A stretch of DNA of 64,000 nucleotides from Asterias amurensis (Eukaryota; Echinodermata; Asteroidea; Forcipulatida; Asteriidae): the NCBI RefSeq assembly GCF_032118995.1, contig NC_092650.1:17913501-17977500 (forward strand). The letters run 5' to 3'. A model generated the notes under the pieces. That model worked only from the letters and a program-made list of their open reading frames with translations, was not told the origin of the DNA and ran no database searches. Positions 11,801 to 63,916 of the stretch are shown one piece after another. Position 1 is the first letter of the stretch; every line of letters begins with the position of its first letter. Both the position numbers and the translations under genes were made by a program.

Positions 11801-12055
11801 TGGTTGTGAAGTGTCCCATTGACTTGTGTATGATTGTGAAGTGTCCCATTGACTTGTGTATGGCTGTGTAGTTTCCCATTGACTTGTGTATGGTTGTGTA
11901 GTTTCCCATTGACTTGTGTATGGTTGTGTAGTTTCCCATTGACTTGTGTATGGTTGTGAAGTGTCCCATTGACTTGTGTATGGTTGTGTAGTTTCCCATT
12001 GACTTGTGTATGGTTTTGTAGTTTCCCATTGACTTGTGTATGGTTGTGTAGTTTC
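8844..12055. repeat. Higher-order repeat unit 1 of the minisatellite
   Basis: The order of unit variants in this 3,212-bp block is repeated from 12056: rare markers such as the 28-bp unit 'TTACCCGTTAATTGTG' (10975 and 14187) and 'GTATTTAGTGTCC' (10906 and 14118) are 3,212 bp apart. Confidence 0.75.
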
Positions 12056-15000: not shown

Positions 15001-15267
15001 TGACTTGTGTATGGTTGTGTAGTTTCCCTTTGACTTGTGTATGGTTGTGTCAATTCCCATTGACTTGTGTATGGTTGTGAAGTGTCCCATTGACTTGTGT
15101 ATGGTTGTGTAGTTTCCCATTGACTTGTTTATGATTGTGTAGTTTCCCATTGACTTGTGTATGGTTGTGTAGTTTCCCATTGACTTGTGTATGATTGTGT
15201 AGTTTCCCATTGACTTGTGTATGGTTGTGTAGTTTCCCATTGACTTGTGTATGGTTGTGTAGTTTCC
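12056..15267. repeat. Higher-order repeat unit 2 of the minisatellite
   Basis: Second register of the block that starts at 8844. Later markers recur at offsets of 2,578 bp (14118 to 16696), so a third, shortened copy follows to about 17.6 kb. The end coordinate is set by the period, not by a visible border. Confidence 0.6.
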
Positions 15268-18200
15268 CATTGACTTGTGTATGGTTGTGTAGTTTCCAAT
15301 TGACTTGTGTATGGTTGTGTCAATTCCCATTGACTTGTGTATGGTTTTGTCAATTCCCATTGACTTGTGTATGGTTGTGAAGTGTCCTATTGACTTGTGT
15401 ATGGTTGTGTAGTTTCCCATTGACTCGTGTATGGTTGTGTAGTTTCCCATTGACTTGTGTATGGTTGTGTAGTTTCCCATTGACTTGTGTATGGTTGTGT
15501 AGTTTACCATTGACTTGTGTATGGTTGTGTAGTTTCCCATTGACTTGTGTATGGTTGTGTAGTTTCCCATTGACTTGTGTATGGTTGTGTAGTTTCCCAT
15601 TGACTTGTGTATGGTTGTGTCAATTCCCATTGACTTGTGATTGGTTGTGAAGTGTCCCATTGACTTGTGTATGGTTGTGTAGTTTCCCATTGACTTGTGT
15701 ATGGTTGTGTAGTTTACCATGGACTTGTGTATGGTTGTGTAGTTTCCCATTGACTTGTGTATGGTTTTGTCAATTCCCATTGACTTGTGTATGGTTGTGA
15801 AGTGTCCTATTGACTTGTGTATGGTTGTGTAGTTTCCCATTGACTCGTGTATGGTTGTGTAGTTTCCCATTGACTTGTGTATGGTTGTGTAGTTTCCCAT
15901 TGACTTGTGTATGGTTGTGTAGTTTACCATTGACTTGTGTATGGTTGTGTAGTTTCCCATTGACTTGTGTATGGTTGTGTAGTTTCCCATTGACTTGTGT
16001 ATGGTTGTGTCAATTCCCATTGACTTGTGATTGGTTGTGAAGTGTCTCATTGACTGGTGTATGGTTGTGAAGTGTCCCATTGACTTGTGTATGGTTGTGT
16101 AGTTTCCCATTGACTTGTGTATGGTTGTGTAGTTTACCATGGACTTGTGTATGGTTGTGTCAATTCCCATTGACTTGTGTATGGTTGTGTCAATTCCCAT
16201 TGACTTGTGTATGGTTGTGTCAATTCCCATTGACTTGTGTATGGTTGTGAAGTGTCCCATTGACTTGTGTATGGCTGTGTAGTTTCCCTTTGACTTGTGT
16301 ATGGTTGTGTAGTTTCCCATTGACATGTGTATGGTTGTGTCAATTCCCATCGGCTTGTGTATGATTGTGTAGTTTCCCATTGACTTGTGTATGGCTGGTA
16401 GTTTCCCATTGACTTGTGTATGGTTGAGTAGTTTCCCATTGACTTGTGTATGGTTGTGTAGTTTCCCATTGACTTGTGTATGGTTGTGTAGTTTCCCATT
16501 GAATTGTGTATGGTTGTGTCAATTCCCATTGACTTGTGTATGGTTGTGTCAATTCCCATTGACTTGTGTATGGTTGTGTCAATTCCCATTGACTTGTGTA
16601 TGGTTGTGTAGTTTCCCATTGACTTGTGTATGGTTGTGTAGTTTCACATTGACTTGTGTATGGTAGTGTAGTTTCACATTGACTTGTGTATGGTTGTATT
16701 TAGTGTCCTGTTGACTTGTGTATGGTTGTGTAGTTTCCCATTGACTTGTGTATGGTTGTGTAGTTACCCGTTAATTGTGTATGGTTGTGAAGTGTCACAC
16801 TGACTAGTGTATGGTTGTCTAGTTTCCCATTGACTTGTGTATGGTTGTATAGTTTCCCATTGACTTGTGTATGGTTGTGTAGTTTACCATTGACTTGTGT
16901 ATGGTTGTGAAGTGTCCCATTGACTTGTGTATGGTTGTGTAGTTTCCCATTGACCTGTGTATGGTTTTGTAGTTTCCCATTGACTTGTGTATGGTTGTGT
17001 AGTTTCCCATTGACTCGTGTATGGTTTTGTAGTTTCCCATTGACTTGTGATGGTTGTGTAGTTTCCCATTGACTTGTGTATGGTTTTGTCAATTCCCATT
17101 GACTTGTGTATGGTTGTGAAGTGTCCCATTGACCTGTGTATGGTTGTGTAGTTTCCCTTTGACTTGTGTATGGTTGTGTTGTTTCCCATTGACATGTGAC
17201 TGGTTGTGTCAATTCCCATTAACTTGTGTATGATTGTGTAGTTTCCCATTGACTTGTGTATGGTTGTGTAGTTTCCCATTGACTTGTGTATGGTTGTGTA
17301 GTTTCCCATTGACTTGTGTATGGTTGTGTAGTTTCCCATTGACTTGTGTATGGTTGTGTAGTTTCCCATTGACTTGTGTATGGTTGTGTCAATTCCCATT
17401 GACTTGTGTATGGTTGTGTCAATTCCCATTGACTTGTGGTTGGTTGTGAAGTGTCCTATTGACTTGTGTATGGTTGTGTAGTTTCCCATTGACCCGTGTA
17501 TGGTTGTGTAGTTTCCCATTGACTTGTGTATGGTTGTGTAGTTTCACATTGACTTGTGTATGGTAGTGTAGTTTCACATTGACTTGTGTATGGTTGTATT
17601 TAGTGTCCTATTGACTTGTGTATGGTTGTGTAGTTTCCCATTGACTTGTGTATGGTTGTGTCATTTCCCATTGACTTGTGTATGGTTGTGAAGTGTCCCA
17701 TTGACTTGTGTATGGTTGTGTAGTTTACCATTGACTTGTGTATGGTTGTGTAGTTTCCCATTGACTTGTGTATGGTTGTGTAGTTTCCCATTGACTTGTG
17801 CATGGTTGTGTAGTTTCCATTGACTTGCGTATGGTTGTGTAGTTTCCCATTGACTTGTGTATGGTTGTGTAGTTTTCTATTGACTTGTGTATGGTTGTGT
17901 AGTTTCCCATTGACTTGTGTATGGTTGTGTAGTTTCCCATTGACTTGTGTATGGTTGTGTAGTTACCCGTTAATTGTGTATGGTTGTGAAGTGTCACATT
18001 GACTGGTGTATGGTTGTGTAGTTTCCCATTGACTCGTGTGGTTGTGTAGTTTCCCATTGACTTGTGTATGGTTGTGTAGTTTCCCATTGACTTGTGTATG
18101 GTAGTGTAGTTTCCCATTGACATGTGTATGGTTGTATTAAGTGTCCTATTGACTTGTGTATGGTTGTGTAGTTTCCCATTGACTTGTGTATGGTTGTATA

Positions 18201-18274
18201 GTTTCCCATTGACTGGTGTATGGTTGTGTCAATTCCCATTGACTTGTGTATGGTTGCGAAGTGTCCCATTGACT

Positions 18275-18562
18275 TTTTTAGTTTGGAAGGAAATAATCTG
18301 ACACAATCGTACCTTCACATTAACCATCAACATATTCTGTGTACCTCCTGTTAGTTTTTATTATTATGAAGAGGTTTTTGATGCATTTTGGAAATAAAAT
18401 TTCTGATGTTTTTTTTTCTAAAAAAAAAAAAATAAATAAAAACAGTTGGGCGGCGATTTCGAAAGGCCTTCTAAAACTGGCGATTTTTTTTTGCGGGGGG
18501 GATGGAGCTTTGAAAAATCTCACGCACAGCTGGCCTCTGGACTTGGCATCTCTGACAACTAG
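18275..18562. repeat. Dispersed repeat fragment (family of 28711-29287)
   Basis: Shares 'CACAATCGTACCT', 'CACATTAACCA', 'TTCTGTGTACCTC' and the end 'ACTTGGCATCTCTG' with 29095-29287 in the Rab2 intron. It directly follows the minisatellite. Confidence 0.7.
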
Positions 18563-19664
18563 TTTGTGTTTGTTTACTCCGCCTAACTTAACTCCGCCCT
18601 TGTGACGTCGAGGCAAAGTTCGCCACCGCGATCGAATGGCGACCCCCGAAGGGTCAAAATATATATTTCCAGGTGACTTTAATGGCAAGGCTTCCCATTA
18701 TATTTCTGAACTGCTTCAAGTGTACACTGCATCAAGGAATCTTCGATCAAGTTCCATGCTTCTCCTCATTGAACCCAAGCCTCGACACTCTGACTTATGG
18801 GTAACAGGTCTTTTTCTTCAGCCGCACCACGCATCTGGTACATACACTCTACGATCTTGTCTTTGTACAACAAAATTCAAATCTCTTCTCAAAACATCTT
18901 ATTGTTGTCTTATTTTATTTAAAATATTCATTTTGTTTTCTTTCAAATTACTTATCTTTCAGAGCTCCGATGAAGAAGATGCGCAACCATGTCCTACCCC
19001 CGAGACAAACAATTGACAGCCGGAGGTGGCACAAGATGAACAATTCTGGTAAAGACTACCATCAGACTAAAGCAGAAGCCATTTTGTATCTGAAGGCTCG
19101 CCTCAAGCTACTCAGAATTCTCAACATCAAAGACAACGACGGGGCCTTCCAGATGTAGACAGGTCTTCCTAACTATGCCGTCTTCAAAGTTTTGCACGAC
19201 TATCTGAAACCCAATTCAAAATGTTCGGGAAAGAACACACTTTTACTTATACAGGAAGGTTGCCGAAAAGTGGTAATTTGCTGTTTGGCTTTCAAAGGAC
19301 CGCCCGCCGTTTTGGTTTAGTGCACACGTCCAACGTGTCATCCGGGCATTTGTCTTGTCAACACCTTTCGCTATTGGCATCTATAGGCCTAAATATAATA
19401 AAGTGAAAACCACTTTCTCCAATTATATTTTTTTTAAATTCATTTGAAATGTTTTTGAGACAAACTATGTGATTGTTGCATAATTATTAACACCTAGTAT
19501 GAATATAGAGGTTGCGGTTGAAGTGAAAGTTTTCGCTGCATTCGATTAAAATGTACACGATATGCATGTGGTACTTTTCTAATGAAATTGTTTAAATTAA
19601 GATTTTTAAAACAATGAATAATTCCAAACCGTAGCACCGTCAAACTTTCATAAACTAATTCCTC
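18563..19664. other. Unassigned stretch upstream of HSF5-like gene
   Basis: Holds only short frames (for example 18636-19016 and 18970-19158 on the plus strand) with no recognised domain. AT-rich from 19400. Confidence 0.4.
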
Positions 19665-24824: not shown

Positions 24825-35596
<10,772 letters not shown>

Positions 35597-40980: not shown

Positions 40981-41365
40981 TTAAATGCAGTGGACACTAT
41001 TGGTAATTACTCAAAATAATTATTGGCATAAAACTTTTCTTGGTGATGAGTATGGGGAGAGGTTGATGGTAAAAAACATTGTGAGAAACGGCTACCTCTG
41101 AAGTGCCATAGTTTTTGAGAAAGAAGTAATTTTCCACGAATTTGATTTCGAGACCTCAGATTTAGAACTTGAGGTCTCGAAATCAACCATCTAAACGCAC
41201 ACAACTTCGTGTGACAAGGGTTATTTTTCTTTCACTTTTATCTCGCAACTTCGATGACCAATTGAGCTCAAATTTTCACAGGTTTGTAATTTTATGCATA
41301 TGTTGAGATACACCAACTGTGAAGACTAGTCTTTGACAATTTCCAATAGTGTCCACTGCCTTTAA
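40981..41365. mobile_element. AGGCAGTGG MITE
   Basis: TTAAATGCAGTGGACACTAT to GTGTCCACTGCCTTTAA, 385 bp. The flank after it (to about 41520) is an inverted copy of the flank of 31251-31637 ('CGATTATAATGTAC', 'AGACTGTG'). Confidence 0.88.
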
Positions 41366-45432: not shown

Positions 45433-48400
45433 CTGTGGGGGGGAAGAAGATTAAGAACAACACGTGATCAACATGAACAAGGGGAATTCCCATTTAAATT
45501 TAAATCCTACATAATCCTACAAAGTAACTGCTCTAAGCCTACCAACCAATAATCCCATAGCATCTAAAAGCATTTAATATCAGTATATTGTGTTATTATT
45601 GAATTCTTTAGAATCACTTTACAACTTGGACATTCGATGTTTGTTCAGTATAACAGTACCCAATACATAAAAACCTAGTAGAACACAGGTTTAACTCTTT
45701 CAAATCGGTGACCGGAGACCAACACAAACTGTCAGGTAGTAAATGCACCAACACTTAACACACATGTACACAGTTAGTTCTGTACTCAGTTCAAAGATCT
45801 GTACATAGTTTACTTCAAAACCAAATGGAACATAAACAAATCGCTATAACTGCAGCTTTATATGGTGTATAATGGTACAGGTTACTTAGACCAATTCCGA
45901 TTTCTATCAAACAGTGCGACTAAATTTGTTAACAATGTAAAGTTTCCAAGCCATGGTGAGCACCAACCTTGATTTTAACCACCTCTGCCCACTCTGGTGC
46001 CACATAGTAGCCAGGGTGTTTATGCAACCAATCCGCTAGATTCTTCAGCATCGGGACCAGTTTGGCCGACAGCTTACGGCCAGACTCCTTCTCTACGATC
46101 CCGACCCTCTCCTCACCGGTCACTTTAGTCAGGTCTAGCTTAGCCGGATTCCTGAGACGTCTACGCTTGGGTTTGGCGTCTGCTGCATTGCCTTGGGGAT
46201 TCTCCTGGGAATCCTATACAATGAGACGAAGAAGGCACAACATTGTTTTTTAAGTGTCTCAGTTTACATCAAGTAAAGATACAATTTAGTTTTTTTTTCC
46301 TATCTATTTAGTCCATGCTTTTAACCTATAACCTTACTTTGTGTAAAAATGATTATGCCTTTTATCATAAATCTCTTTGTTGAAGGGGTATACTACTTTC
46401 TGACCATGGAGTGGGTAACTCTTTGATGTCGCTAGCGACTGGTTTAAATTCCTCAAAAAAGCAGTGAAGTGTGGGAGAGACGGAGACCCAGTTTTCATAA
46501 TGGGAAAGAGAACTCCTGAGGGTGCTATTATGTCTCATTTCTTTTGCAGTTTGCAAAAATCAAATATTATTAAATAAGTCTATCTGATCAATTTGTCACT
46601 TTAATAAATAGTCCATAATAGGGTTTAAATAAGTGAAAGGTATCAGATGTGAAAAGAAAAAGGGAAAAAATAAAAGAATATATATTTTAAAAATTTTTAA
46701 AAAAAATTCAGAAAATTTCATAAAAAACAATGAGACGAGAAAATCTAGGAAGGACCTTACCTCCAAGGCTGTTGGATTTCCAGCAGAGTTAACCCTAGCA
46801 GCAAGAGCTGAATGTGAATGACTCTGAATGATGAAGTCAGTATTAGCAGAGAGCCACATCATCAGGTCCTTCTTGAGCGGTGCCGTTGGCCCCGATAACT
46901 TCTCATCTGTCTTACGGTTGATCACTGGCACGTGGTCGTCTGCATGTACAATCAGAAGAGGGAGAATTGAAATCTTGGCTCGGGTCAGTTTCAATCGTTG
47001 ACTTGCAACTTTGTTTTAGCAAAAAACTAAAAACCAAAACAAGACGACAACACATGAGGAAACTGCTGAACATAAAAAACTTCGTATAGTGATATCAGTA
47101 TTTTTTAGTGCTAGAAAGAAGAAGAAAAAAACCAACAGGGAAATAAGATCATCCTAAAAATTTGCAAACAGAGTGTAGAATTGAGAAATTTAGTATTGAT
47201 AAAGAAATATGTCACAACTTACCGTCTTTAAAGTTGGCTAGATTCAAATGGCGTGCTTTCCTTTTCTTTTTCACAGTACCTGTTTGCATTTGTTCACCCT
47301 GGAAAAATTGAAGGGACAATATTTTGATATATTGCAAACAAAATCAGTCTAACAACATGTTTGATTATCTTCCTACCTAGAGTGGTAGACCTACATATAA
47401 GAGAGTAACTATTTATTGTAAGCCTAATCTGATATTAATGAGCTAAATGGTTAAAGGCAGTGGACACTATTGGTAATTACTCAAAATAATTATTAGCATA
47501 AAACCTTTTTTGGTGACGAGTAATGGGGAGAGGTTGATGGTATAAAACATTGTGAGAAACGGCTCCCTCTGAAGTGCCATAGTTTTCGAGAAAGAAGTAA
47601 TTTTCCACGAATTTGATTTCGAGACCTCAGATTTAGAACTTGAGCCAAATCTAAACGCACACGACTTCGTGTGACTAGGGTGTTTTTTTCTTTCATTATT
47701 ATCTAGCAACTTCGATGACCGATTGAGCTCAAATTTTCACAGGTAAGTTATTTTATGTATATGTTGAGATACATCAACTGTGAAGGTTAGTCTTTGACAA
47801 TTACCAATAGTGTCCACTGCCTTTAAACGACAGTATAGAGATGTGATTCAATTACAGTAACAAGGCATGAAATGGAGGAATAATCCTCAAGACCAGAGGG
47901 CCTGTTGCTCAAAATGTTTACTAGCTCAGTATTCTTTTTACTTGACCAGAATAAAACTTCCTAACCTGTAGACTGTATGTGTAAAACCAAAATGAATATA
48001 CATTTAACCGTTTTTTATTTAAACAAGAACTAAGAAATGTAAGAGACTATTACCTAAGAACATATTGAGTGCATTTACTATTAAGTATACTTCATTACTA
48101 AATAAGTACTTTATCAGACTGGACTCAAACAGGACAGAGTGAGATACTATTATTCATTTGAAAAACACAAGACTACCGGACTTGTCGGTCAAGAGTTTAT
48201 GTACTGGCCCAACATTCAAACTGCCAGCCTTGGGCCCAGTGTAAAATTTCAGCCCTTCAATCATCATTTTTTTCCCCAAAAACTGACAAACGTTGTAGTG
48301 TTTTTCTGCTTTCCATGCAGTATTTTACATATAAACTAGAACAGGTGGACGGACGGACAGACGAACAGAAATTGGTATTACATAGGTCTCACACTTGCTT

Positions 48401-51400: not shown

Positions 51401-54400
51401 ATGGAGAAATTTACAGCAGATTTTCTTCACCAGGCTGACTGCAAAAGTTCAACTTCAGATAGAAGTCAAAAATTTCTCATCTCTGATAATGCAAACAAGC
51501 TTAGCTTTAAGAAATGAACATTCTGTGTTTACATACCTGGCGACACCAATGAGCAGATCTCGGTCATGAACTCCGACCTCCCACCAATCGGGTAGCTCCA
51601 GGCTCTTCCTGCAGTGGCGCATGCGTATCTCCATCTCTGGATGAGGGCAGGCTTCGTTGCGCACCTTGAGGAGGAGGTCGATGCGGTGAAGTACCTTGTT
51701 GGCCCGCTCCTCCGAGATCTCTTCGATGGTGAAGTCTGGAAGGGGCATCGAGCCTGGGGGTTCCCAAATACAACGCACAGCAGAAAGGGAGAAAAAAGGT
51801 TTTAGATAATCAATTTGAAAGTTGGAGCATACATTGAAAAAAGGTGTCTGGGAATATCATTGCAAACTGAATGCCATAAACAAGAAAACAAAATGGAACA
51901 GATACAGAAACTATTTTTTTTCTTCAAAAACATGCATGATATTTGGTCCTTGTAAACAAAATGGTAGGAACTTTTTTATCAATAACAAGAGTGACCTACA
52001 AATGTACACAAGGCGTAGGCTTTAAAAGACCGTACAGGCAAATTTAATTACAGCTTTCCTGACTTGTCCAAGGCCAACCACATTCAAAGTAAGAAAAAAT
52101 TAAAGTATCAACCTTTTTTCTTTAAAGATTGCTGCATGCATTTTATTTTTACATTGCTCACACCGATGAGAAATATGTTTTGCTTAATTGGTGCCCCCCC
52201 CCCACACCCTGAAAAAAAAATGTCGCAGACATACTACCCGAGTGGGAAACAAGTGGGTAAAATTTGTTCAAAGAAAAATTTTGAAAGAAACTGGACTCAC
52301 CAAAATCCTGAGGTATCTCTTCTTCTCTCTTGCATTTCCTGAGACACATCGCTCTGAAGTGTTGATAGTACTCCAGCAGCCGATGGTCGTACTTCCGTTC
52401 CAACTTGGCCACCTTGCGGAAGTTGGACCAGTCGTATTTACCTGTCATCACGTCCTGTTCCACACCAAATGTGGCCAGGACGCGATAGAAATCGGCTTCC
52501 TCGCGCCGCGACCATCTGTGGATGAATCAAGAGATGGGGGAGAATTACAGGAAGTCATGTTGGCAGTAGTTAAATTTAGGTCTTGTGGCAAAGTTTGCCT
52601 CCAAGTTGCCTGTAAAACTTGCGTCTAAGTTTGTCAAATTAATTGGGTTCTAACAAGAACAAGTAATATCATTCAGTTATGCAGTTAAGCGAAGTGCTGA
52701 GGATGAATGGTACTTACTTCTGTGCATTCTCTTGTTTCTTAAGTTGTCTTTGTCTCAACTGCTCTTCAAATCTAACTTGCTTCACCATCTCACGCTGTCA
52801 AGGAAAGCACATACACAAATAACACTAATTAATTATGTATGACAGGACAATCAGTCGGTTGACCGTGCAACTTGATCAGGCTAAATATAAATCAATCAAA
52901 AGCAGGAACTACCATGCGGTGGATTCTGAAAGATTTCAATAGTGATGGGTAAAAGCAAAAGTGACTGAATGAAGGTAATTAATCCAGGGTTGGATTTCAC
53001 AAAGAGTTAAGACTAGTCTTATCTCGCGTTAAGACTTTAGGATTTACCCTTTTCAATAGCTCTTAGGACTAGTCCTTAGTTATGGCTATCTTGTGAAACC
53101 GACCCCAGGATTGAGTTGTAACCTACCCAGGATTGAGTTTTACCCTACCCAGGATTGAGTTTTACCCTACCCAGGATTGAGTTTTACCCTACCCAGGATT
53201 GAGTTTTAACCTACCCAGGATTGAGTTTTAACCTACCCGTGCTCTCTTGGCTTGCTTCTGCTGTTGTCTTTTATGGTTCCGCTGATATGCCGCTACAAGT
53301 CGTCTGAGTCGGGTGTTCACGTCAGGCGCCAGTGGGAACGGCAGCTTACCGGGTATAACTGCCAATAAAATATGTGTCAGAGAATGAGTCGTAACTGGAG
53401 ATAATGTATTAGAACATACTTGGCTCAATTGCCATCTGGGTCTGCAGGGCCCAATTTCATAGAGCTGCTTAACGGTAAGCAATCTTTTATGCTTACTGTA
53501 GCAGAAATATTTGCCAAGGTGTAAATGTATTTCACAGGTTAGCAAGAAAGTTTGGCAACCATCTTGCACGTTCACCATGGATTTGCATTGTGATGCCATT
53601 CATTTCCCTGCAGTAAGCAACGGAAGGTCAGAATGCCTTTTAGCGTGCTTGCGGTTAGCAGCGCTATAAAAAAGAAATGGTACAGTAAGCACAAACTCGG
53701 TTGTTAAGCAGCTCTATGGAATTGGGCCAATTGGAATCTTCAATCCCTGATTCATCAGACTCCAGCTGCTTCCAAACCCCTGCTGTTGACGCAGCGTCAA
53801 TACAATGTGACAAGCCTGGCAAAGTTAACCAGGGTCCAATTTCAAGGCTCTGAATCGGGGCTTGCGGAAGCAGGAAATTATGTCATTACGTGAAGCGTAT
53901 TTCACAGTTAGCAGGGAGTTTTGGCTTGTGCGCAATGTGTACTCCGCATTACTAGGCATTCTTCACTTACACAGCTAGCGTAGAAATAACGTGTTTGCCC
54001 AGTAAGCAGAGAATGGTGAACTTGGCCGTAAGCGTAGAAATAACGTGTTTGCCCAGTAAGCAGAGAATGGTGAACTTGGCCGTAAGCGTAGAAATAACGT
54101 GTTTGCCCAGTAAGCAGAGAATGGTGAACTTGGCCGTAAGCGTAGAAATAACGTGTTTGCCCAGTAAGCAGAGAATGGTGAACTTGGCCGTAAGCGTAGA
54201 AATAACGTGTTTGCCCAGTAAGCAGAGAATGGTGAACTTGGCGGTAAGCAGAGGCATGAAGTTTGACCCAGATCAACTGATGGGTAAGCTCAAAATTTCA
54301 TTGGGGTGTCATGACCGAGTGGTTAAGAGCATCAAAATCAGGTTCTTGTGGCTATGTCATCAGGGTGTGGGTTCGAATCCCAGTCATGACGTTTGTGTCC

Positions 54401-57400
54401 TTGCTTCTCTTCACACAGGGGTCATTTGGCATGTACCATTTGTGGCTGGTATCCTGCTTGTTTTTGCTTAGTGTAAATTTGTTAAGCAACATTTACTGTG
54501 CATTTGGGCCCTGATTGACTCTTGATCAGAATTGCAGAACATTTTCATCAGCGAGTTGTTATACACTCAGCTAGTTAGTGTGTTTGTTGGTTTATCATCA
54601 TATCAAGAGACAGGGTCATATTAGTGTGGAAGATGGTTCTTGCTATGGTTCTTTCACTATGTGACGGATTTTGAGCGTCATATAAGAAGCCACTATTATT
54701 AAAGCAAGCAAGTTGCCATGCTAATATAAGGGGGTAAAAAATTGGGGTGTTAAAAAAAAAAAGAAAAAGGAAAACAAACCCAAAAGACTAACCAATGGAA
54801 CTAAAAAGTTGGCCTGATAAGCAAAGATTTCACAGGCCCGATTATTACTACATATAAAACATGATTTTTAAAATATAGCATAAGTTCCTACCAGGCATGG
54901 TTGTTGGTTCCGGCTCTGACTTGAGTTTCATAGGAGCAGGTGAAGAGGTCCGGATACTAGAAGGTGACAAAGACCCTTCCTGTAAACCAACAAAAAAACA
55001 AAACGTCACTAAAAAACACATGAAAGGAGAAATAAAATGTCACTAACATCCCTGTAAGTACAGAATCCTGCATTAAGCAGTGCCATGATATTGGGCAATA
55101 TAGCTGCTTAAGCACTAAGAAGTCACTAAGTACAAAACAAAGTTGGCTTACAAGAACAAGGTTACCAGCCATAATGCCATAATATGGCATGTACCATTTG
55201 TGGCTGGTAGCCTACTAATTTTTGCTTAGCGTAAATTTGGTTAAGCAAGACTTTCTATGATTCTGGGCCCCATTTGACTCTTGATCAGAATTGCAGAACA
55301 TTTTCATCAGCGAGTTGTTATACACTCAGCTAGTTAGTGTGTTTGTTTGTTTATCATCATATCAAGAGACAGGGTCATGTTAGTGTGTCAGGTCACCCCC
55401 GAATTGACGGCTACGGCTACTGCTACGGCTAGATATCCACACCACCATGTGTTGAAGTATAGGACATACTTAGCAATAGTCATAGCCAACTGATAGCCAT
55501 ATTTGCCAAATCTGATATGGCCTTAATCTTTACGATGCTGTCCATTTTTAGCAATCCACCTCGCAGATTTTTTTTGATAAGCAATAGCAGATTTCTAAAA
55601 AACCTGCTCAGCAGATTTTTTTTTTTTTCTTTTTTAAATAGTGTTAAGTGCCCAGGAGCATGTTTCATGGATGGACGCTTGTTAAAAATTGTCATTGATT
55701 ATTATTATTTTTTCAAAAGTCTATAGCAAACTGAAAATGATTTTTTTGGAAAATGTATGTGTACAAACCTCCAGGTAGTCCTTGAGATCTCTAATGTTGG
55801 GTTTCATGTCTAGATCAGCACCCTCCCCCTTCAGGTCAGTCTCCATCGATTCTACATCCAGTTGACTGCATCAAGAAACAACACAATGAACCTGGTATTA
55901 AGTAAGAACGTTCAGCCGTCGGACCTCGCTAACCGGGACAGCCTCTTGACCTATCGCTATCAGTGTCAGCTTAAAATCTGCTACAAATCACTGGATTCAG
56001 GACTGCAGTTCCCTAAACATCCGAGCATCAATCTTAAAAAAAGACCCGATACCTCTCGGCAAAATTGGACCATTTATTTTATGTCATCCAAAATACCTCA
56101 AGTTGGAAGTCAACAACCCCCAGGTCACAACTGGGCACAGTTTTTACACTTCATCCTTTTTCTTAGACTCTAATATCGGTCTATAATGGATAATTTTGAG
56201 GGCTGACAAAATATTAATGAGGCCAATGCTCTGTTTTCTCCTATATTTAGTGGTCAGCATCCAGACTGTCATGTGGTTTTGATGTGTGATCAGATTGATA
56301 TATTGAGAAGAATTTCAACTCATTGAGCTCCAGCGTGGCGTCCGTCAAGACGCCACGTGAGTCCTCAGTATTAGCATGACATATCTCATCATGTCACACA
56401 CCATCCATCACTAGTTCAGCATAACTGACAATTAGTCTTATTTTCACGATTGTTTCAAAATTAGTGTAATGGTGAGTTACAGTATAAAATCTACAAAAAT
56501 AAAGCAAAAAGTGAGGGAAACTTTACCTGAGAAAATAGAATTAGCTGTTGCAAACAACTAACCAACCAAATGGACCGATGGTATAAATGCAAAAATAGTA
56601 ATGGCCTGACGTTTCGACCCTAGCAGAGTCTTTCAAAGACTAAATGACAACACAACAAACATGGACAAGTAACTAAGCAGTGAAATGGAAATACATGAAT
56701 GGCATCTTTACCTGTCGTCATTGTCTCCATTCTCCCTAGCAATCTCTCTTTTAGTAGGGGCTCCACATCTACCCAGGAAGCAAAGGGTTGTATCTGTCCG
56801 CATGGCTGCATATCTCTCATAACCTGTGATGATTGAACAACATAAAATAATACAAATTATAGACAGAGTTCTCCCCACACACAAGCTAGCGTATCGGGAA
56901 TATAAGCGCAGTATGCATGCCTATTTTCGCAAATAATGGCAGATGCAAAAAAATAATTTAATAGTTATACAAATTCTATTTAGAAATAATTTCTAAAAAT
57001 TCATAAGAAAACCATACAGGATGCTCCAGATCACACAGTAGGGTTTTTTCAAACCTAAGATAAACACCCAAGTTTAAAACATTCCAAAGACCTTGTTTCA
57101 ATTCAGCTTGCTTCAACCCAAACATCACAAAAAAGTGGGTCTAGAATGCCCTACCCCCTAAGTGTTTTTTTAAAAACCTTTGGAGAACCCTGACAATTTA
57201 TTTCACCAATTACTGACAAAGTTTCAGACAGAGTATCAATGGCCACTTATTTGTCTCCTGTCCACTACTGTCATCTGGCATCTAAGAAAACAAAATTCCT
57301 TACTGGTCCTTTCTTTTGATCAGAATTGCAGAACAAAGCATCAATGAGTGATATACACTCAGACAAGTTAATGTGATTGTTATTTCATCATCACATCAAG

Positions 57401-60400
57401 AGAAAGGAGTACAATAAAACAATAAAAAAACATTTCCTTTTTTTAAATTAAAAATCTTTCCTTGAGTAGCTTTCAGTCCTATTTTCTTTTGCGCCTCAGA
57501 CTAGAGCATCTAGATAGATGGCTATATAAATGGCTATTATTATCATTATTAAAGGCAGTGGACACTATTGGTAATTACTCAAAATAATTATTAGCATAAA
57601 ACCTGTCTTGGTGACGTGTAATGGGGATAGGTTGATGGTATAAAACATTGTGAGAAACGGCTCCCTCTGAAGTGCCATCGTTTTCGAGAAGGAAGTAATT
57701 TTCCACGAATTTGATTTCGAGACCTCAGATTTAGAACTTGAGGTCTCGAAATCAACCATCTAAACGCACACAACTTCGCGTGACAAGGGTTTTTTTCCCT
57801 TCATTATTATCTCGCAACTTCGATGATCGATTGAACTCAAATTTTCACAGGCTAGTTATTTTATGCATATGTTGAGATACACCAGCTGTGGAGTTTAGTC
57901 TTTGACAATTACCAATAGTGTCCACTGCCTTTAAGGATTGTGGACAGTATGATGACAGTCAGTAGTAAGAAGTGCAATATTTTAATCAGTATGCTCAGTG
58001 CATCTCCAGGATTAACTCGGACTCTAGTGATGCATTTTGCTGAACCAGTATCTTCTTAACTACAGAATTACCTGTAGAGCACAACAGGGCCCAATTCCAT
58101 AAAGCCTGTAAGCACAAAAACTTAATGAGCCAAAAGAAAAAAAAACTTGCTGAGCCAAAAACAAAACAAAAAAACTTGCTGAGCAAAAAATAGCTTACAA
58201 TCCAGAATACCATACAGCTACCATTGCTGCGACTTGGAACCCCACTTATTTCTTGCTTAGCAAAAAAAATTGCTTGGCAGAATTGTCTGCTGTAACAGCT
58301 TAATGAAATTCGCCCCAGTACTTTGATGTTAAACTGACCGTGTTTGAAGACCCCTACTAGGAGGGAGCGATCTGCATCTTCATCCCACCAACCGATCGGA
58401 GGTTCACCCTCGGGTAGCACCATCGACAACGGTAACTCACTAAAGTAAAAGACAATCAATCAATAAATCAAATCAATCAATCAATCAGTCAGTCAATCAT
58501 AGCAAAAACTTGGATCGGGCGAGTTGGTAAAAAAAAAGCATTTGAAAGAGTGTGTTAAAGGCAGTGGACACTATTGGTAATTGTCAAAGACTAGCCTTCA
58601 CAGTTGGTGTATCTCAACATATATGCATAAACCTGTGAAAATTTGAGCTCAAACGGTCATCGAACTTGTGAGATAATAATGACAGAAGAAAAAACCCTTG
58701 TCACACGAAGTTGTGTGCGTTTTTAGATGGTTGATTTCGAGACCTCAAGTTCTAAATCTGAGGTCTTGAAATCAAACTCGTGGAAAATGACTTCTTTCTC
58801 GAAAACTATGGCACTTCAGAGGGAGCCGCTTCTCACAATGTTTTATACCATCAACCTCTCCCCATTACTCATCACCTAGAAAGGTTTTATGCTAATAATT
58901 ATTTTGAGTAATTACCAAAAGTGTCCACTGCCTTTAAAAAATGCATATGGTTAGAAAGATGTTTTAAAAGTAGAATATAATGATCTGACGATACACAAAT
59001 ATGTGTCGAACTTGCGCGGTTTTCCTTTCACTTTGCGAACTAACACGGTCAGCAAAATTTTGACTCCATAAAATGGCATTTCTTTTAAGGGGGCTGTGTC
59101 ATCAAGATCAATTCACAAATGTCTAACTCCTGGTCCATGAGAAGCTGGACACTTTTAAAACTAAGTGAACTTTCCTAAAATTATTTCCAGACTTACTTCA
59201 GTCATGTTGCCAGCAATGCTTTACAACAAGTCTAGTAATATATACCTGGTTTCTCTTGATCAGAATTGCAGAACATTTTCAACAGTGAGTTGTTATACTC
59301 TCAGGTAGTAAGTGTGTTTGTTTGTTTATCATCATTTCAAGAGATAGGTTTAGGATATACTGTGACTGAAATGCAGGCAATGTTGCTCCACATTTGATTT
59401 ACCTGAACTATGTACAAAGCCAAATATAGAGCTGCTTAAAGGCAGTGGACATTATTGGTAATTACTCAAAATAAGTATTAGCATTAAACCTCACTTGGTG
59501 ACGGCTATTGGGTAGAGGTTGATGGTATAAAACATTGTGAGAAACGGCTCCTTCTGAAGTGACTTAGTTTTCGAGAAAAAAGTAATTTTCCACGAATTTG
59601 ATTTCGAGACCACAGATTTAGAATTTGAGGTCTCAAAATAAACCATCTGAAAGCACACAACTTCGTGTTTAATACAAGGGTGATTTTTTCTCCCATTATT
59701 ATCTCGCAACTTCGACAACCAATTGAGCTCAAATTTTCACAGGTTTGTTATTTAATGCATATGTTGAGATACACCAGGTGAGAAGACTGGTCTTTTTCTG
59801 TTTAGGCCCAGTCTATAAAATATGGCCAAGGGTCTGAAGTCAATAAAATAAACATTAAAGTAAATCGTACCTTGCCTCACAACCATCCGCTATCCTCTCC
59901 ATCATGTCACCTATGACCTCTTGCTTCAAGTAGTACAATAGTCTGACACGCAGCAGCACCCTGCAAGAAACCAACAAGGGCAATAGCTATAAAGATGGGC
60001 AATAATTACACCAAACCTAACCCCAACTCCAGGCCTAGTGTAACACTGAGGCATTGTCCTTGGTACAGGCCTTGGTGCCTCAATTTTTTTATTTATAGCT
60101 TCTCTTTTTAAAAAAAATCAACGGAAACGCTCTTACAAAATGAAATTGACTAGCTCTTGATCAGAATTGCAGAATATTTTCATCAGCGAGTTGATAAAAC
60201 ACTTGGGGCCTTGGTGCCCCTTCAATTTTTATTTTAATAGCTTCTTTAAAAAAAAAAAAAAACCAACGGAAACGTTTTTTACAAAATGAAATTGACTAGC
60301 TCTTGATCAGAATTGCAGAACATTTTCATCAGCGAGTTGATAAAACACTCAGCTACTGTGTGTGTTTGTTTGTTTATCATCACTTCAAGAGATATAGATG

Positions 60401-63400
60401 AGACTATGAAGCATCTGGGAATGTCGAGGCTTGCATGTTCAACTGAGGTTAGAAACTTGTAAAATGTCCCCCTAGTTTCATAAGGTCTCTATCCATTGGA
60501 AAAATGAGTTTAACTTTGGAGTTTGATCCCTTCTTGACCAATATGGATCGGACGGGGTGATAAACTGAAGAAATCCACTGCTCTAAAATGCACTTCACGA
60601 CAGGGAATCATTTTCTTAACCACACCCTAAAAATCAGAACCTGACTTACTTGTTACAATGTCTCTTGAGATGGTTCTTGTACCCTTGATCAGTGAGCAGC
60701 GTCTCGGGATCCTGATCCCTGGCGTTGAAGTCATACTCCAAGATGGCTGGAACAACGTCTTCCTCCTTCTTGGGCTTCTTGGACTTGCGGCCACGAGGCA
60801 CCGGAGCAGACAGACCTTAAGAGAAAAACAAATTGTCACTTTAGTGTGTATTTTTTTGTGTTAGATTAGGGCTCAACTTCAATGCACTGCTTTTGCTCAA
60901 TGGCTCTAAAAACAAGTTTTCTAAGGGCTCAGCTTCCTAAGGAACCTGAGTGAGCTTTCCTAAAACTATTTCAAAACTTGTTTCACTCCCGTTGCAAGCA
61001 ATGCCTTAAAACTATTTTTTCTGAAATAGTGGGTACTTTTTTTCTCTTGATCAGAATTGCAGAACATTTTCAACAGTGAGTGTTTAACTCTCAGCTAGTT
61101 AGTGTGTTTGTTTGTTTATCATCATTTCAAGAGACACGTTTGTGAAACATTGTGTTCCCTCCTACTTTTCATTTTTAATTGGGAGCCATCTCAGTTCTGA
61201 AAACACTAGAACTGTTCTGCCTATTAACTACTACCCTTCCAACTTACTAATTTCACTTAGTGGATCGAGGGGACTTCAAGATATAAACTTCAATGCCGTG
61301 GAGTGAGTTCTAGCTTGCTATAGTAATTGTCAATGCATACCTTTGTGGTTTCTGTAGTCTTTGATAGAGCCATCCGGGGCCGGAGTGACCAGGTCCCAGA
61401 TGAAGCTTTTGATGTTCTCATCTCCTTTGTAGAACTTCAGACAGAAGATCAGCTGAGTAAAGATTGACGATAAAAATGGAACAAAGGGTTGAATTCACAA
61501 AAAGGCTAAAACAAAATTCTACCATCTCACAAAGAAAACCTTTGAAGAACAATCCACATTTAACAAGGCCTTGTGCCACTTCCAGAATGAGTCTCTGGTG
61601 TTCAACCTCTAAATTGTTTCATTATGACTGTTCTGTAACTTTTAAATAACTTATTGTAATGTTTTTTTTCTTCTTGATACAATTGTCAATTATTATTTGT
61701 GTCAATGTTTTGCAATAACTTGAAACTAAATGGTCCCAATTCTTACACACAAACAAATTTTCCATGTATCACTCAAACCATGCCTGATTTAACAGCTATG
61801 GCTTGGTGGCTGGATGATAATGCATTAAAGCATAGGTTGCCATTAGCAACAGCTGCAGCCACAGCTGCCAAGTCCGACACGGCTATTTGATCAATTGAAA
61901 CCAAAAGAAAAGTTTGACTCCTATTATCAGTGAGAAACCCCTCAAAAAGGCACCGGAGCTGACATACCTTCAAAGAGAAACAAATTTTCGTCTTAAAATG
62001 TTTTTGTATGTGTCAAATTTCGGTTTTATGGCACTGCTTTTGCTGAAAATCCTTCCACAAATAAAAATGTTCCTTGGGAAGATCCAGCCTATTTTCACAA
62101 AACCCTAGGATCAATCCTACCTTAGAGGATGGTTCAATGCATCCTATTATGATCTTAAGATTAGTTCTACGTTAGATAGAGTTTAGTGTGATCGACAGCA
62201 GGATACTTTTAAAACTAAGTGAGCTTTCCTAAAACTACTTCCAGGCTTGTTTCCGTCCTGTTGCAAACAACGCCGTACAACAACTTGAGTTGCAAATATA
62301 CCTGGTTTCTCTTGATCAGAATTGCAGAACATTTTCAACAGTGAGTTGTTATACTCTCAGCTAGTTAGTGTGTTTGTTGGTTTTTCATCATTTCAAGAGA
62401 CATAATAGGTCCAGGAAATATTGGGTTCCCTCCTACTTTGCATAACATTTACCAGATAATTCCAATGGAAGGAAAACCCATGCGATCAGGTAGGGTTTGA
62501 AAATCCCAAAAGGTCGGGAGAAGAAACAACTGAGACAAACTCACCATTGTTCTTGAGATGGCCTCTACGTCTTTCTCACCCAGAGGTCTCTTGAATCGAG
62601 TCGTCATCAGAACATCTTCCCATCTACCCCACCTTCAAAATAAAAACAAGCCATTTGTTTAAAGACAACATTATTTCAGGATACATTTCCTTTTGTTTGT
62701 TTGTTCAAGAACAGAAACCCATTTGAAAAGGAAAAAAAATATGCGATTTGCTTCAACAGAATACACATTAAGTTTTGACAAGAGGTGCACTCATGAAAAA
62801 ATCAAGGAGTTTCTTACATCTTTCCAAAATCATGAGAGAAAAACCTTTTTAGTCGATGCAGTATTTAAAACCACGTCTAGGTATTGGCAGGCTCAATTGA
62901 ATAGACAACAATCTGCAGTTCAGATCAGCACTTTAAGAGGTTCTAATCACGTTAATCAGCTGAAACACGGATAAAGTTAAATCATCACTTCCAAACTGCA
63001 GTCTCTCTTAAATCGTAAGATTTTTAAATACTAAGCTTACGAAAAAAATGCTGTCAGTGTACATGCCATTCGTGGGATGGGGATATAAATGGTACTCGGG
63101 CTTCACCTACAGGCCATTCCTGTCCACTAATAACGCGAACCTCCAGCATTATGCTATAAAGGACAGTTCATCTTTTGATGTCAGCTTACCCATACAGTGC
63201 AATCTAAAATAATGTGATTTAATATTTATTTTCTATTGGGCTGAATTTATAGGAGACCTTATTGTGAGACTATTTAGAAGTAAGAGTTCGGATGGCAGCT
63301 TACCCGTATGTAAGCAGACCCTTCTCCACACGGAAACACTCCAGCCTAGTCCAGCCAGACTGCAGCTGGCTCTTGCATGGCTTTACCATCTTAATAGCCA

Positions 63401-63916
63401 CAGCGGGCGCCCCAGCGGTAGCCGTTGCAGAAGAAGAAGCCTTGTGGCCCTTCTGCTCCGCCTTCTTTGGCGGGGCCGGTTGTTCATCGTCGCTGTCCTC
63501 GTCATTGCTGGTGAACTCTACCATCTCGTCCAGGTTGCCAAAGCGACGGGTTTGTTTACGTTTGCGGGGCTCGTTGATCACATGACTTTCCTGATGGAGG
63601 TTAATTGAAAAGAATTTTCTTGATACTTGTTGACTAATTATTCTGTCATATATAGAGAAGTAAACCTGAATCCAAATTTCTGAGTCCAATATTAGGCTGG
63701 TGCTATGGGCCCCTACTCAAGGTCATTTTTTCCGAGGCAGACCACAAACCACCTATGAGGATACCTTGTGCCAGGACTCTGGACTGTGTTGGGAAGAGCT
63801 GCGTACAGCAATGGAGGACCAGCGTGTTTGAATGAATGAATGAACTCACAGTCTTAGCCTTGGTGCCCTTGAAATCTTCCCATACACTTTTCGAATATCT
63901 AACGGAAGTGCTGCTT
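44779..63916 (-). CDS. CHD6-9: CHD6/7/8/9-class chromatin remodeller, C-terminal part (21 exons, 5' end outside window)
   Basis: Twenty-one minus-strand exons join in phase to about 1,452 residues ending ...GGDSDLE and TAA at 44779-44781. The window starts after the chromodomains and SNF2 ATPase, which lie beyond 64000. In order: a basic RKRKQTRRF segment and a SANT/SLIDE-like region (GWGRWEDVLMTTRFKR, YKGDENIKSFIWDL, GLSAPVPRGRK, VLLRVRLLYYLKQEVIG, GWWDEDADRSLLVGVFKHG), a second conserved block (WSRREEADFYRV, WWEVGVHDRDLLIG), an acidic Ser/Glu-rich exon, two BRK domains, and an acidic tail. Two BRK domains mark the CHD6-9/kismet subfamily, ATP-dependent nucleosome remodellers at enhancers and promoters. 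Paralogue choice is not meaningful if, as expected, this lineage has a single gene. Eight introns carry snoRNAs on the same strand. Confidence 0.95.
45968..46213 (-). CDS. CHD6-9: CHD exon: BRK domain 2
   Basis: Reads RRRLRNPAKLDLTKVTGEER then the second BRK (VGIVEKESGRKLSAKLVPML to HPGYYVAPEW). Donor AAG|GTTGGT is weaker than average. Confidence 0.93.
46761..46939 (-). CDS. CHD6-9: CHD exon: BRK domain 1
   Basis: Reads DDHVPVINRKTDEKLSGPTA then PLKKDLMMWLSANTDFI, a typical BRK domain, the motif shared by CHD6-9 and Brahma-type proteins. Confidence 0.93.
47223..47298 (-). CDS. CHD6-9: CHD exon: short basic linker
   Basis: Reads GEQMQTGTVKKKRKARHLNL to NFKD; acceptor TTTTTCCAG, donor GACG|GTAAGT. 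Confidence 0.82.
47451..47826. mobile_element. AGGCAGTGG MITE in CHD intron
   Basis: TTAAAGGCAGTGGACACTAT to GTGTCCACTGCCTTTAA; the internal palindrome is partly deleted. Confidence 0.9.
49060..49316 (-). CDS. CHD6-9: CHD exon: linker with KKKKAYLKVK
   Basis: Reads DPHHPSMQGKGGSLESPLDL to MRRKKKKAYLKVKMKTM; phases fit. Donor GAGAG|GTAAGG uses the last G of the exon. Confidence 0.85.
49531..49816 (-). CDS. CHD6-9: CHD exon: DRVIVHRLENIC
   Basis: Reads DRVIVHRLENICHCVLKNCW (WPKDRV...RL..IC in the family), His-rich middle, and a basic KRKRKRR segment; donor AAAG|GTAAAT. Confidence 0.9.
49985..50174. mobile_element. GGGCCC-type MITE in CHD intron
   Basis: GGCCCAATTTCATAAAGCC to AGCTTTATCAAATTGGGCC. 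Confidence 0.75.
50248..51070 (-). CDS. CHD6-9: CHD large acidic exon
   Basis: 823 bp. Starts RYGINRMESQQQMLVDPDLS F, matching the family, then a proline run and a long Ser/Glu/Asp-rich, probably disordered region, ending YAFLMKWPK. Confidence 0.92.
51537..51753 (-). CDS. CHD6-9: CHD exon: DWWEVGVHDRDLLIG
   Basis: Reads EEISEERANKVLHRIDLLLK, ending DWWEVGVHDRDLLIGVA; donor CCAG|GTATGT. Confidence 0.93.
52301..52515 (-). CDS. CHD6-9: CHD exon: WSRREEADFYRV (SANT-like)
   Basis: Reads WSRREEADFYRVLATFGVEQ, then YDWSNFRKVAKLERKYD; closely matches the second conserved block of CHD7/8/9. Confidence 0.93.
52718..52794 (-). CDS. CHD6-9: CHD exon: basic coiled segment
   Basis: Reads REMVKQVRFEEQLRQRQLKK to NAQ; Gln/Lys/Arg-rich, probably helical. 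Donor CAGAA|GTAAGT. Confidence 0.85.
52985..53106. repeat. Palindromic repeat (family of 38048-38162)
   Basis: 'GGATTTCACAAAGAGTTAAG' at the left and 'GGCTATCTTGTGAAACC' at the right, with 'GACTAGTC' blocks inside. Confidence 0.55.
53108..53236. repeat. 22-bp minisatellite abutting a splice donor
   Basis: Six units of GGATTGAGTTTTACCCTACC plus CA. On the gene strand each unit contains GTAGG(T/G), and the unit next to the exon supplies the real donor GTAGGT. Confidence 0.9.
53237..53358 (-). CDS. CHD6-9: CHD exon: LRRLVAAYQR
   Basis: Reads VIPGKLPFPLAPDVNTRLRR then LVAAYQRNHKRQQQ. Its donor CGG|GTAGGT is the last copy of a 22-bp minisatellite that fills the start of the intron. Confidence 0.92.
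53447..53728. mobile_element. GGGCCC-type MITE in CHD intron
   Basis: GGGCCCAATTTCATAGAGCTG to CAGCTCTATGGAATTGGGCC, near-perfect ends. Confidence 0.8.
53832..54270. mobile_element. GGGCCC-type MITE with internal tandem expansion
   Basis: Starts GGGTCCAATTTCAAGGCTC and ends in the near complement GGCATGAAGTTTGACCC; its middle is the 54-bp tandem repeat. Confidence 0.6.
53978..54247. repeat. 54-bp tandem repeat, exactly five copies
   Basis: Unit starts GCGTAGAAATAACGTGTTTG and ends CTTGGCCGTAA; five copies of 54 bp, almost identical. 54 is a multiple of three, so 18-residue periodic frames appear on both strands but nothing supports coding. Confidence 0.95.
54305..54500 (+). repeat. tRNA-derived SINE (Ser/Leu-like head)
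   Basis: Head 54308-54391 has a 7-bp acceptor-like stem (GTCATGA / TCATGAC), A box GACCGAGTGG and B box GGGTTCGAATCC. The anticodon arm is degraded, so it is a SINE head rather than a tRNA gene. Confidence 0.65.
54519..54609 (-). ncRNA. Box C/D snoRNA, U96-like copy 1
   Basis: Terminal stem CTCTTGAT / ATCAAGAG; on the gene strand C box ATGATGA (54595-54601), D' CTGA (54567-54570), C' CTGATGA (54545-54551), D box CTGA (54526-54529). The guide before D reads GTTCTGCAATT and pairs with 5.8S rRNA AAUUGCAG(G/A)AC; the fifth base faces the position equal to human G75, the U96/SNORD96 target. In a CHD intron, host strand. Confidence 0.88.
54892..54979 (-). CDS. CHD6-9: CHD exon: Ser/Pro linker
   Basis: Reads EGSLSPSSIRTSSPAPMKLK to TTMP; acceptor GGTTTACAG, donor CCTG|GTAGGA, phases consistent. 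Confidence 0.8.
55278..55368 (-). ncRNA. Box C/D snoRNA, U96-like copy 2
   Basis: Same stem, boxes and guide as the copy at 54519, with one base changed in the C-D' spacer. About 100 bp of flank on each side is also shared with that copy. Confidence 0.88.
55769..55865 (-). CDS. CHD6-9: CHD exon: acidic linker
   Basis: Reads SQLDVESMETDLKGEGADLD to KDYLE; phases fit both neighbours. Little family conservation expected here. Confidence 0.8.
56283..56400 (-). ncRNA. Box C/D snoRNA in CHD intron, mgU6-53 (SNORD8/9)-like
   Basis: Terminal stem TGTGTGA / TCACACA; C box ATGATGA (56386-56392), D' CTGA (56365-56368), D CTGA (56290-56293), inner hairpin GTGGCGTC / GACGCCAC. The D' guide GTCATGCTAAT pairs with U6 snRNA and places the fifth base opposite A53. 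Human mgU6-53 snoRNAs (SNORD8, SNORD9) are in CHD8 introns, so both guide and host gene agree. Confidence 0.9.
56712..56823 (-). CDS. CHD6-9: CHD exon: YERYAAMR
   Basis: Reads GYERYAAMRTDTTLCFLGRC, directly continuing the previous exon as in CHD7/8. Donor GACAG|GTAAAG. Confidence 0.93.
57313..57402 (-). ncRNA. Box C/D snoRNA, U96-like copy 3 (most diverged)
   Basis: C box TGATGA, D' CTGA, D CTGA and the guide GTTCTGCAATT are kept, while C' is worn (TTGATGC) and the spacers differ. Terminal stem retains one G-U pair. Confidence 0.75.
57549..57934. mobile_element. AGGCAGTGG MITE in CHD intron
   Basis: TTAAAGGCAGTGGACACTAT to GTGTCCACTGCCTTTAA, 386 bp, complete. Confidence 0.92.
58087..58316. 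mobile_element. GGGCCC-type MITE in CHD intron
   Basis: GGGCCCAATTCCATAAAGCC to AGCTTAATGAAATTCGCCCC. Confidence 0.7.
58339..58439 (-). CDS. CHD6-9: CHD exon: WWDEDADRSLLVGVFKHG
   Basis: Reads SELPLSMVLPEGEPP then the family hallmark WWDEDADRSLLVGVFKH; donor CACG|GTCAGT. Confidence 0.93.
58508..59076. mobile_element. Broken copy of the 390-bp palindrome element
   Basis: 58508-58554 and 58938-59076 match the left arm of 7287-7676 ('ATGCATATGGTTAGAAAGATG', 'GCGGTTTTCC'); the right arm is missing and an AGGCAGTGG MITE splits it. Confidence 0.7.
58555..58937. mobile_element. AGGCAGTGG MITE nested in another MITE
   Basis: TTAAAGGCAGTGGACACTAT to GTGTCCACTGCCTTTAA, inverted relative to its neighbours, inserted in the palindrome element. 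Confidence 0.9.
59253..59343 (-). ncRNA. Box C/D snoRNA, U96-like copy 4
   Basis: Stem CTCTTGA / TCAAGAG, C box ATGATGA, D' and D CTGA, guide GTTCTGCAATT. C' is CTGTTGA. Flanks shared with the copies at 61044 and 62309. Confidence 0.87.
59438..59795. mobile_element. AGGCAGTGG MITE, truncated at its right end
   Basis: Left end TTAAAGGCAGTGGACATTAT is intact; homology stops after 'GAGAAGACTGGTCTTT', so the right terminal repeat is lost. Confidence 0.8.
59871..59960 (-). CDS. CHD6-9: CHD exon: LLYYLKQEVIG
   Basis: Reads VLLRVRLLYYLKQEVIGDMM to DGCEA; acceptor TTTCTTGCAG, donor GCAAG|GTACGA. Confidence 0.93.
60069..60345. repeat. Tandem duplication of about 138 bp containing a partial snoRNA
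   Basis: 'CCTTGGTGCC...CAATTTTT' through 'TGAAATTGACTAGCTCTTG' to 'GATAAAACACT' occurs twice head to tail (60069-60206 and 60207-60345). Confidence 0.8.
60154..60203 (-). pseudogene. Truncated U96-like snoRNA
   Basis: Keeps D box, guide (with one change, ATTCTGCAATT) and C', but the D' and C-box half is missing because the duplication ends within the snoRNA. Confidence 0.8.
60300..60391 (-). ncRNA. Box C/D snoRNA, U96-like copy 5
   Basis: Complete: C box GTGATGA, D' CTGA, C' CTGATGA, D CTGA, guide GTTCTGCAATT, terminal stem CTCTTGA / TCAAGAG. Shares the intron with the truncated copy. Confidence 0.86.
60650..60815 (-). CDS. CHD6-9: CHD exon: GLSAPVPRGRK
   Basis: Reads GLSAPVPRGRKSKKPKK to GYKNHLKRHCNK. 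Donor AACAA|GTAAGT, phase 2. Confidence 0.93.
61044..61133 (-). ncRNA. Box C/D snoRNA, U96-like copy 6
   Basis: Stem, C box ATGATGA, D' and D boxes and guide as in the other copies; one base shorter between D' and C'. Confidence 0.87.
61341..61452 (-). CDS. CHD6-9: CHD exon: IKSFIWDL
   Basis: Reads LIFCLKFYKGDENIKSFIWD to YRNHK; donor AAAG|GTATGC. Confidence 0.93.
62309..62399 (-). ncRNA. Box C/D snoRNA, U96-like copy 7
   Basis: Stem CTCTTGA / TCAAGAG, C box ATGATGA, D' CTGA, D CTGA, guide GTTCTGCAATT. Lies 145 bp after the exon donor, on the host strand. Confidence 0.87.
62545..62632 (-). CDS. CHD6-9: CHD exon: SANT-like GWGRW
   Basis: Reads WGRWEDVLMTTRFKRPLGEK then DVEAISRTM; strongly conserved family block. 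Donor ATG|GTGAGT. Confidence 0.93.
63304..63590 (-). CDS. CHD6-9: CHD exon: RKRKQTRR linker
   Basis: Reads ESHVINEPRKRKQTRRF, an acidic patch, then RLECFRVEKGLLTYG; matches the post-ATPase linker of CHD7/8. Donor ACGG|GTAAGC. Confidence 0.9.
63850..63916 (-). CDS. CHD6-9: CHD exon (tentative, first in window)
   Basis: Acceptor-like TTCATTTTAG, donor AAGACT|GTGAGT, phase agrees with the next exon. Reads SSTSVRYSKSVWEDFKGTKA; only the tryptophan region fits the family, so the exon is less certain than the others. Confidence 0.45.

Follow-up and report, generated by a model that had tools for sequence, protein, structure and literature searches.

Box C/D small nucleolar RNAs (snoRNAs) are stable RNAs bound by fibrillarin, NOP56, NOP58 and SNU13. 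They have a box C (consensus RUGAUGA) close to the 5′ end and a box D (CUGA) close to the 3′ end, which a terminal stem holds together; the guide runs up to box D and sets its fifth base against the nucleotide to be modified. Families of C/D paralogs that lie in the introns of one host gene, arose by local duplication and kept their guide as the sequence varied are described for chicken and human, SNORD12 and SNORD58 among the latter (PMC2653536, PMC8178906). CHD genes are also named as hosts: one paper places an H/ACA snoRNA in chicken CHD4 (PMC2653536), and a table in another assigns SNORD8 and SNORD9, guides for A53 of U6, to CHD8 (PMC6023535). SNORD96A is described as a predicted guide for Gm75 of 5.8S ribosomal RNA (rRNA) (PMC7812721), and snoRNAs are reported to be enriched in introns of a sea cucumber (PMC8580430). 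Here we analysed a 64,000-nucleotide window of the starfish Asterias amurensis (contig NC_092650.1, positions 17,913,501 to 17,977,500), in which a box C/D snoRNA occurs in seven copies of 90–92 nt, each in a different intron of a gene of the CHD6-9 type and always on the minus (host) strand. The genome searched comprises 491.5 Mb in 23 contigs, and the window sits on a contig of 28.6 Mb.

A first-pass annotation of this DNA had regarded a CHD gene as an undescribed host for a multi-copy family of this kind. The novelty is smaller than that, because CHD8 hosts SNORD8 and SNORD9 and one-host C/D families are known; the type of arrangement has been described before. On the narrower point, the papers listed by a literature search, with subscription journals mostly outside it, gave no description of a multi-copy snoRNA family in a CHD gene, of a CHD gene with so many copies, or of this gene in echinoderms. 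Like the known cis-duplicated families, the starfish family occupies several introns of one gene, here seven, with common flanks for copies 1, 2 and 4 and for copies 6 and 7, not for copies 3 and 5. It differs from the chicken paralogs, SNORD12 and SNORD58 in that two families (seven and six copies) and a third snoRNA share a chromatin-remodeller gene. We consider it very probable that the seven elements are a functional intronic C/D guide family grown by local duplication. The locus offers a clear case of two C/D guide families multiplied in one protein-coding gene, where the duplications can in part still be read from the flanks.

Seven copies of one box C/D snoRNA

All seven copies read on the minus strand. 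Copy 1 lies at 62309-62399 in intron 21 (61453-62544), copy 2 at 61044-61133 in intron 22 (60816-61340), copy 3 at 60300-60391 in intron 23 (59961-60649), copy 4 at 59253-59343 in intron 24 (58440-59870) and copy 5 at 57313-57402 in intron 25 (56824-58338). Copies 6 and 7 follow at 55278-55368 in intron 27 (54980-55768) and at 54519-54609 in intron 28 (53359-54891). The element of about 91 bp in seven introns, as first annotated, was thus recovered in full. A family model made from the seven copies themselves scores them at 96–126 bits (E 3e-19 or better), values that are high by construction; beyond these and one half copy it finds two weak matches in the window, at 18.9 and 16.8 bits (E up to 1).

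The half copy adjoins copy 3 (60150-60203, minus strand) and has a C′ box, the guide with one change and box D, with the 5′ half and box C missing. The family model matches 60150-60244 at 48.5 bits, and the stretches 60068-60203 and 60207-60349 are 87% alike. By its sequence we read the half copy as a tandem duplicate that is probably non-functional. The proposal of one complete copy per intron therefore holds for complete copies, with the amendment that intron 23 also contains this half.

In the alignment of the seven copies, the core of box C, box D′ and box D are intact throughout. The C′ box is looser, being UGAUGA-like in four copies and UGUUGA in three. The terminal stem (CUCUUGA/UCAAGAG) has 7–8 bp in six copies; in copy 5, the most diverged, six of seven pairs form around one mismatch, and the best predicted fold of this copy lacks the stem. 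No covariation was seen in the terminal stem among the seven copies. The four boxes and stem described at first sight are thus present, C′ and the stem of copy 5 being the looser parts. Variable columns number 33 of 101, and the longest invariant run, 20 columns, spans the guide, box D and the start of the stem; a run as long appeared in 91 of 20,000 column shuffles. Copy 5 is 75–80% identical to the other copies.

Two kinds of repeat occur within these introns. A 54-bp tandem repeat with near-identical units (53977-54249) lies in the intron of copy 7. A repeat of ∼360–390 bp with 28-bp inverted ends, which by its sequence looks like a miniature inverted-repeat transposable element, has eight copies in the window, in both orientations and 84–93% alike (5045-5431, 30520-30907, 31251-31637, 40981-41365, 47451-47826, 57549-57934, 58555-58937 and 59436-59795). 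Two of these accompany snoRNA copy 4 within its intron and a third lies in the intron of copy 5, and several weak Rfam matches to mir-3036 fall inside the repeat.

The host gene

A hand-made model, guided by splice sites and an open reading frame, sets thirty putative exons across the window and adjoining loci. Each of the 29 modelled introns is GT-AG and the frame is open throughout, with three stops, all before the first methionine. Eleven of the exons lie in the window (52718-63590, minus strand); the full model reaches extended coordinate 80500, and at the low-coordinate end protein homology continues past the model, down to 45944. The protein has Pfam Chromo in two stretches, SNF2 and Helicase_C. 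When its post-helicase part was searched against proteins, the numbered CHD names among the best 120 of 594 matches were only CHD7, CHD8 or CHD9; the two nearest named among them are a CHD8-like protein of the sea cucumber Apostichopus (57%) and a CHD7-like protein of the hemichordate Saccoglossus (55%). Among solved structures, the best 60 of 92 matches belong to CHD and SNF2 proteins other than the host's own subfamily, led by CHD4 and Chd1. Two of four queried BRK-bearing relatives match the host region down to ∼46 kb. The domains, the CHD7/8/9 matches and the homology down to 45944 argue for a single CHD6-9-type gene, which bears out the CHD host originally named.

A conserved guide predicted to target 5.8S rRNA

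The guide that precedes box D does not vary among the seven copies and forms a 12-bp duplex (11 Watson–Crick pairs and one G-U) with nucleotides 70–81 of the genome's own 5.8S rRNA, numbered from the Rfam start. The fifth-base rule places the target at G74, which comparison with a human 5.8S stretch equates with human Gm75. An equal duplex in 18S and 5.8S was reached by 5 of 4,000 shuffled guides. The Rfam SNORD96 model (RF00055) scores all seven copies at 26.8–30.7 bits, below its gathering cut-off of 43. The family is thus predicted to work like SNORD96, with Rfam scores that fall short of membership. It has in common with SNORD96A (U96, RF00055, host GNB2L1) the box C/D structure and the predicted role as 5.8S Gm75 guide; it differs in its sub-threshold score, its CHD host and its seven copies over seven introns. 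The first-pass annotation contained neither this 5.8S target, the SNORD96 site, nor the duplication traces and the six-copy SNORD126-like family described below.

The best rRNA match of the D′ guide is 9 bp, including one G-U, in 18S, and is found in four of the seven copies. The lack of a convincing rRNA target on that side, together with the dense packing in consecutive introns, would suit snoRNAs that act chiefly on the host transcript, on its splicing or the regulation of it, and not on rRNA. We hold this to be very improbable: the invariant part of the family is precisely the 5.8S guide, while the D′ guide varies among copies.

A functional guide family would operate as follows. After splicing of the host pre-messenger RNA, trimming of the debranched introns would stop at the small nucleolar ribonucleoprotein that occupies the terminal stem and boxes C and D. 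With the 12-nt element that precedes box D, the snoRNA would steer fibrillarin to 2′-O-methylate the 5.8S G that corresponds to human G75. We infer such expression, processing and methylation for the family, and extra copies would probably raise the dose of this one guide. At least some of the seven copies should work, and probably all of them do. This raises the question of why as many as seven copies of a guide would be required for a single methylation of 5.8S.

Duplication history and probable selection

With flanks included, copies 1, 2 and 4 have 213–237 bp in common, and copies 6 and 7 have 206 bp. These readable duplications took in 19–44 bp before and 96–112 bp after the snoRNA. Intron 21 further contains, downstream of copy 1, a splice-junction remnant (61948-62047, minus strand) that is 72% identical to the junction of intron 22 with its exon (60796-60900), where the end of the next intron meets the start of the next exon. 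We read the shared flanks and the remnant as marks that DNA duplication has left within the gene. At most nine flank bases are common to the tested pairs that include copy 3 or copy 5 or that set one group against the other; we infer duplication as the origin of these two copies and as the link between the groups. Family expansion would then have proceeded by local duplication within the gene, after which selection would have retained boxes, stem and guide while the spacers and the D′ side were free to drift.

Repeated insertion of a mobile or snoRNA-derived element in the gene could also yield seven copies whose conserved core is sharply delimited, and copies 3 and 5 have no long common flank in our comparisons. 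SnoRNA retroposition exists in mammals (PMC2653536, PMC8178906), and the U6-53 and SNORD126-like families of this gene have relatives in other genes. Such an element should not be expected, however, to sit on one strand only, as all copies do, or to come with common flanks outside the snoRNA and the remnant of a duplicated splice junction. A 23-mer from the 5′ half of the family was searched over the 491.5 Mb with up to three mismatches, a search that misses diverged copies (copy 5 went unmatched), and gave 50 matches versus 45 for the reversed control. The five matches with 0–1 mismatch are all in the CHD gene, and one of the three with two mismatches is copy 1; the two other two-mismatch sites, on another contig, were compared with the family model, one reaching 18.7 bits and the other giving no match (E up to 1). 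Repeated insertion is accordingly a very improbable account of the family, and growth by local duplication is preferred.

Rates of change in snoRNA core and flank were compared in 16 of the 36 pairs that can be formed (for the 5.8S-guide family 7 of 21, for the SNORD126-like family 9 of 15), which were chosen by hand and are not independent. The difference was significant (p < 0.05) in 10 of the 16; the remaining six, with 27 or fewer aligned flank bases, were uninformative (p 0.49 to 1). Local alignment favours the better flank, a bias against finding the core slower. Among the seven 5.8S-guide pairs tested, the four with long flanks show 1–4 changes per 90–91 positions in the snoRNA and 14–29 per 113–135 in the flank: 4/90 versus 29/135 (p 0.0004), 4/91 versus 22/128 (p 0.005), 4/90 versus 28/115 (p 0.00007) and 1/91 versus 14/113 (p 0.002). 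The alignable flanks of the SNORD126-like copies differ by ∼11–19% in six of nine tested pairs, those with a significant core–flank difference. Purifying selection would explain the slow core and faster flanks in both families. Gene conversion limited to the snoRNA core is a possible alternative source of this contrast, and of the near identity of the SNORD126-like copies. The annotated pattern of boxes and guide kept as flanks and spacers diverge is borne out by the 20-column invariant run and by the slower core in four pairs.

In a narrower form of the functional reading, one or two copies would supply the RNA and the others would be decaying duplicates in which guide and boxes still survive. 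The stem mismatch and diverged spacers of copy 5 (75–80% identity), the half copy without box C, and the drift of spacers and D′ guides all fit that picture. Yet guide and box D are unchanged in seven of seven copies, next to flanks that differ by 12–24% in the four alignable pairs, and even copy 5 keeps its guide intact. We therefore judge it a possible but less likely course than activity of the whole set.

Three snoRNA families in one gene

One complete C/D snoRNA each is carried by 14 of the 29 modelled introns, in three families: the 5.8S guide occupies introns 21–25, 27 and 28, intron 26 has U6-53, and the SNORD126-like snoRNA is found in introns 4, 7, 12, 13, 18 and 20. Introns 20–28 are thus nine consecutive snoRNA-bearing introns; the series was recognized in the first-pass annotation, which counted eight and lacked the SNORD126-like copy of intron 20. 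All 14 are on the gene strand. A model-free scan that required both boxes and a stem of five or more Watson–Crick pairs found sites on the gene strand in 13 of the 29 introns and on the opposite strand in none of them, in keeping with the original statement that copies follow the host strand; copy 5, which has a stem mismatch, was missed. The median intron length is 817.5 nt with a snoRNA (n=14) and 465 nt without (n=15). No further copy was found in introns outside the model (the 5′ untranslated part and the region below 52718) by Rfam and family-model searches of the window and the adjoining loci L011–L015.

The SNORD126-like copy in the window lies at 62918-62996 (minus strand) in intron 20 (62633-63303) and scores 34 bits with RF01168, below the cut-off of 55. 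The other five are upstream, outside the window and also on the minus strand: four in locus L011 (1367-1445, 4570-4648, 5216-5294 and 9163-9241) and one in L012 (1669-1747). The six score 34.0–34.9 bits, under the gathering score of 55, and differ by one substitution across 87 columns. A genome search with RF01168, in which 61 of 72,545 candidates were scored and the six CHD copies themselves were missed, gives a lower bound of at least one match, in an intron of SF3B3 (L020 ∼1501-1579, G000:C3:21462936-21463014, minus strand; 40.2 bits, again below 55). This relative is on the same contig at a distance of 3.5 Mb and reads in the direction of SF3B3; it shares a 20-nt block with the six CHD copies, and its guide block is the same. 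It is possibly the source of the CHD copies. With the Rfam SNORD126 consensus the six CHD copies have the 17-nt block UCCGUGUUUCAGCUGAU in common; the starfish snoRNAs differ from that family in scoring only 34–40 bits and in being multi-copy in a CHD gene. SNORD126 guides modification of 28S.

The U6-53 snoRNA of the CHD gene lies at 56285-56397 (minus strand) and scores 49.5 bits with RF00377, above the cut-off of 36. A second one (27513-27626, plus strand; 46.8 bits, also above 36) lies 187 bp past a RAB2-like exon, reads in the direction of that exon and presumably sits in the following intron. The two are 89% alike over 176 bp including flanks, in opposite orientations. With 55 of 24,537 candidates scored, the RF00377 genome search sets a lower bound of at least two U6-53 genes, the CHD and RAB2-like copies. 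Both SNORD8/SNORD9 (mgU6-53), by the table that names their CHD8 introns, and the starfish snoRNA belong to the RF00377 family and have hosts of the same CHD subfamily; the difference is that both human genes are in CHD8, whereas here one copy is in the CHD gene and one in the RAB2-like gene. Residence in the CHD6-9 subfamily in human and starfish suggests a very old bond, which is checkable in any animal genome. Tentatively, and with more doubt than confidence, we propose that the CHD6-9 gene became a major snoRNA host in this lineage (14 C/D snoRNAs of three families), U6-53 having kept its host since before the echinoderm–vertebrate split and the others having been amplified around it. If so, output of the remodeller would be tied, through one transcript, to the supply of guides for 5.8S, U6 and (for SNORD126) 28S.

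Other features of the region

The RAB2-like gene near the CHD gene recalls the neighbouring human pairs CHD8–RAB2B and CHD7–RAB2A. Histone 3′ stem-loop matches occur in L012 (227-272), L014 (1046-1242) and L015 (1493-1537), one within a CHD intron on the opposite strand and the rest upstream of the modelled gene, and L014 also has two transfer RNA matches. On the minus strand of the window, 8188-18700 contains a repeated series of open frames, two of them of 669 codons and 3.2 kb apart (8844-10853 and 12056-14065). A long hairpin at 1339-1423 gives a weak mir-1990 match on both strands, under the family cut-off.

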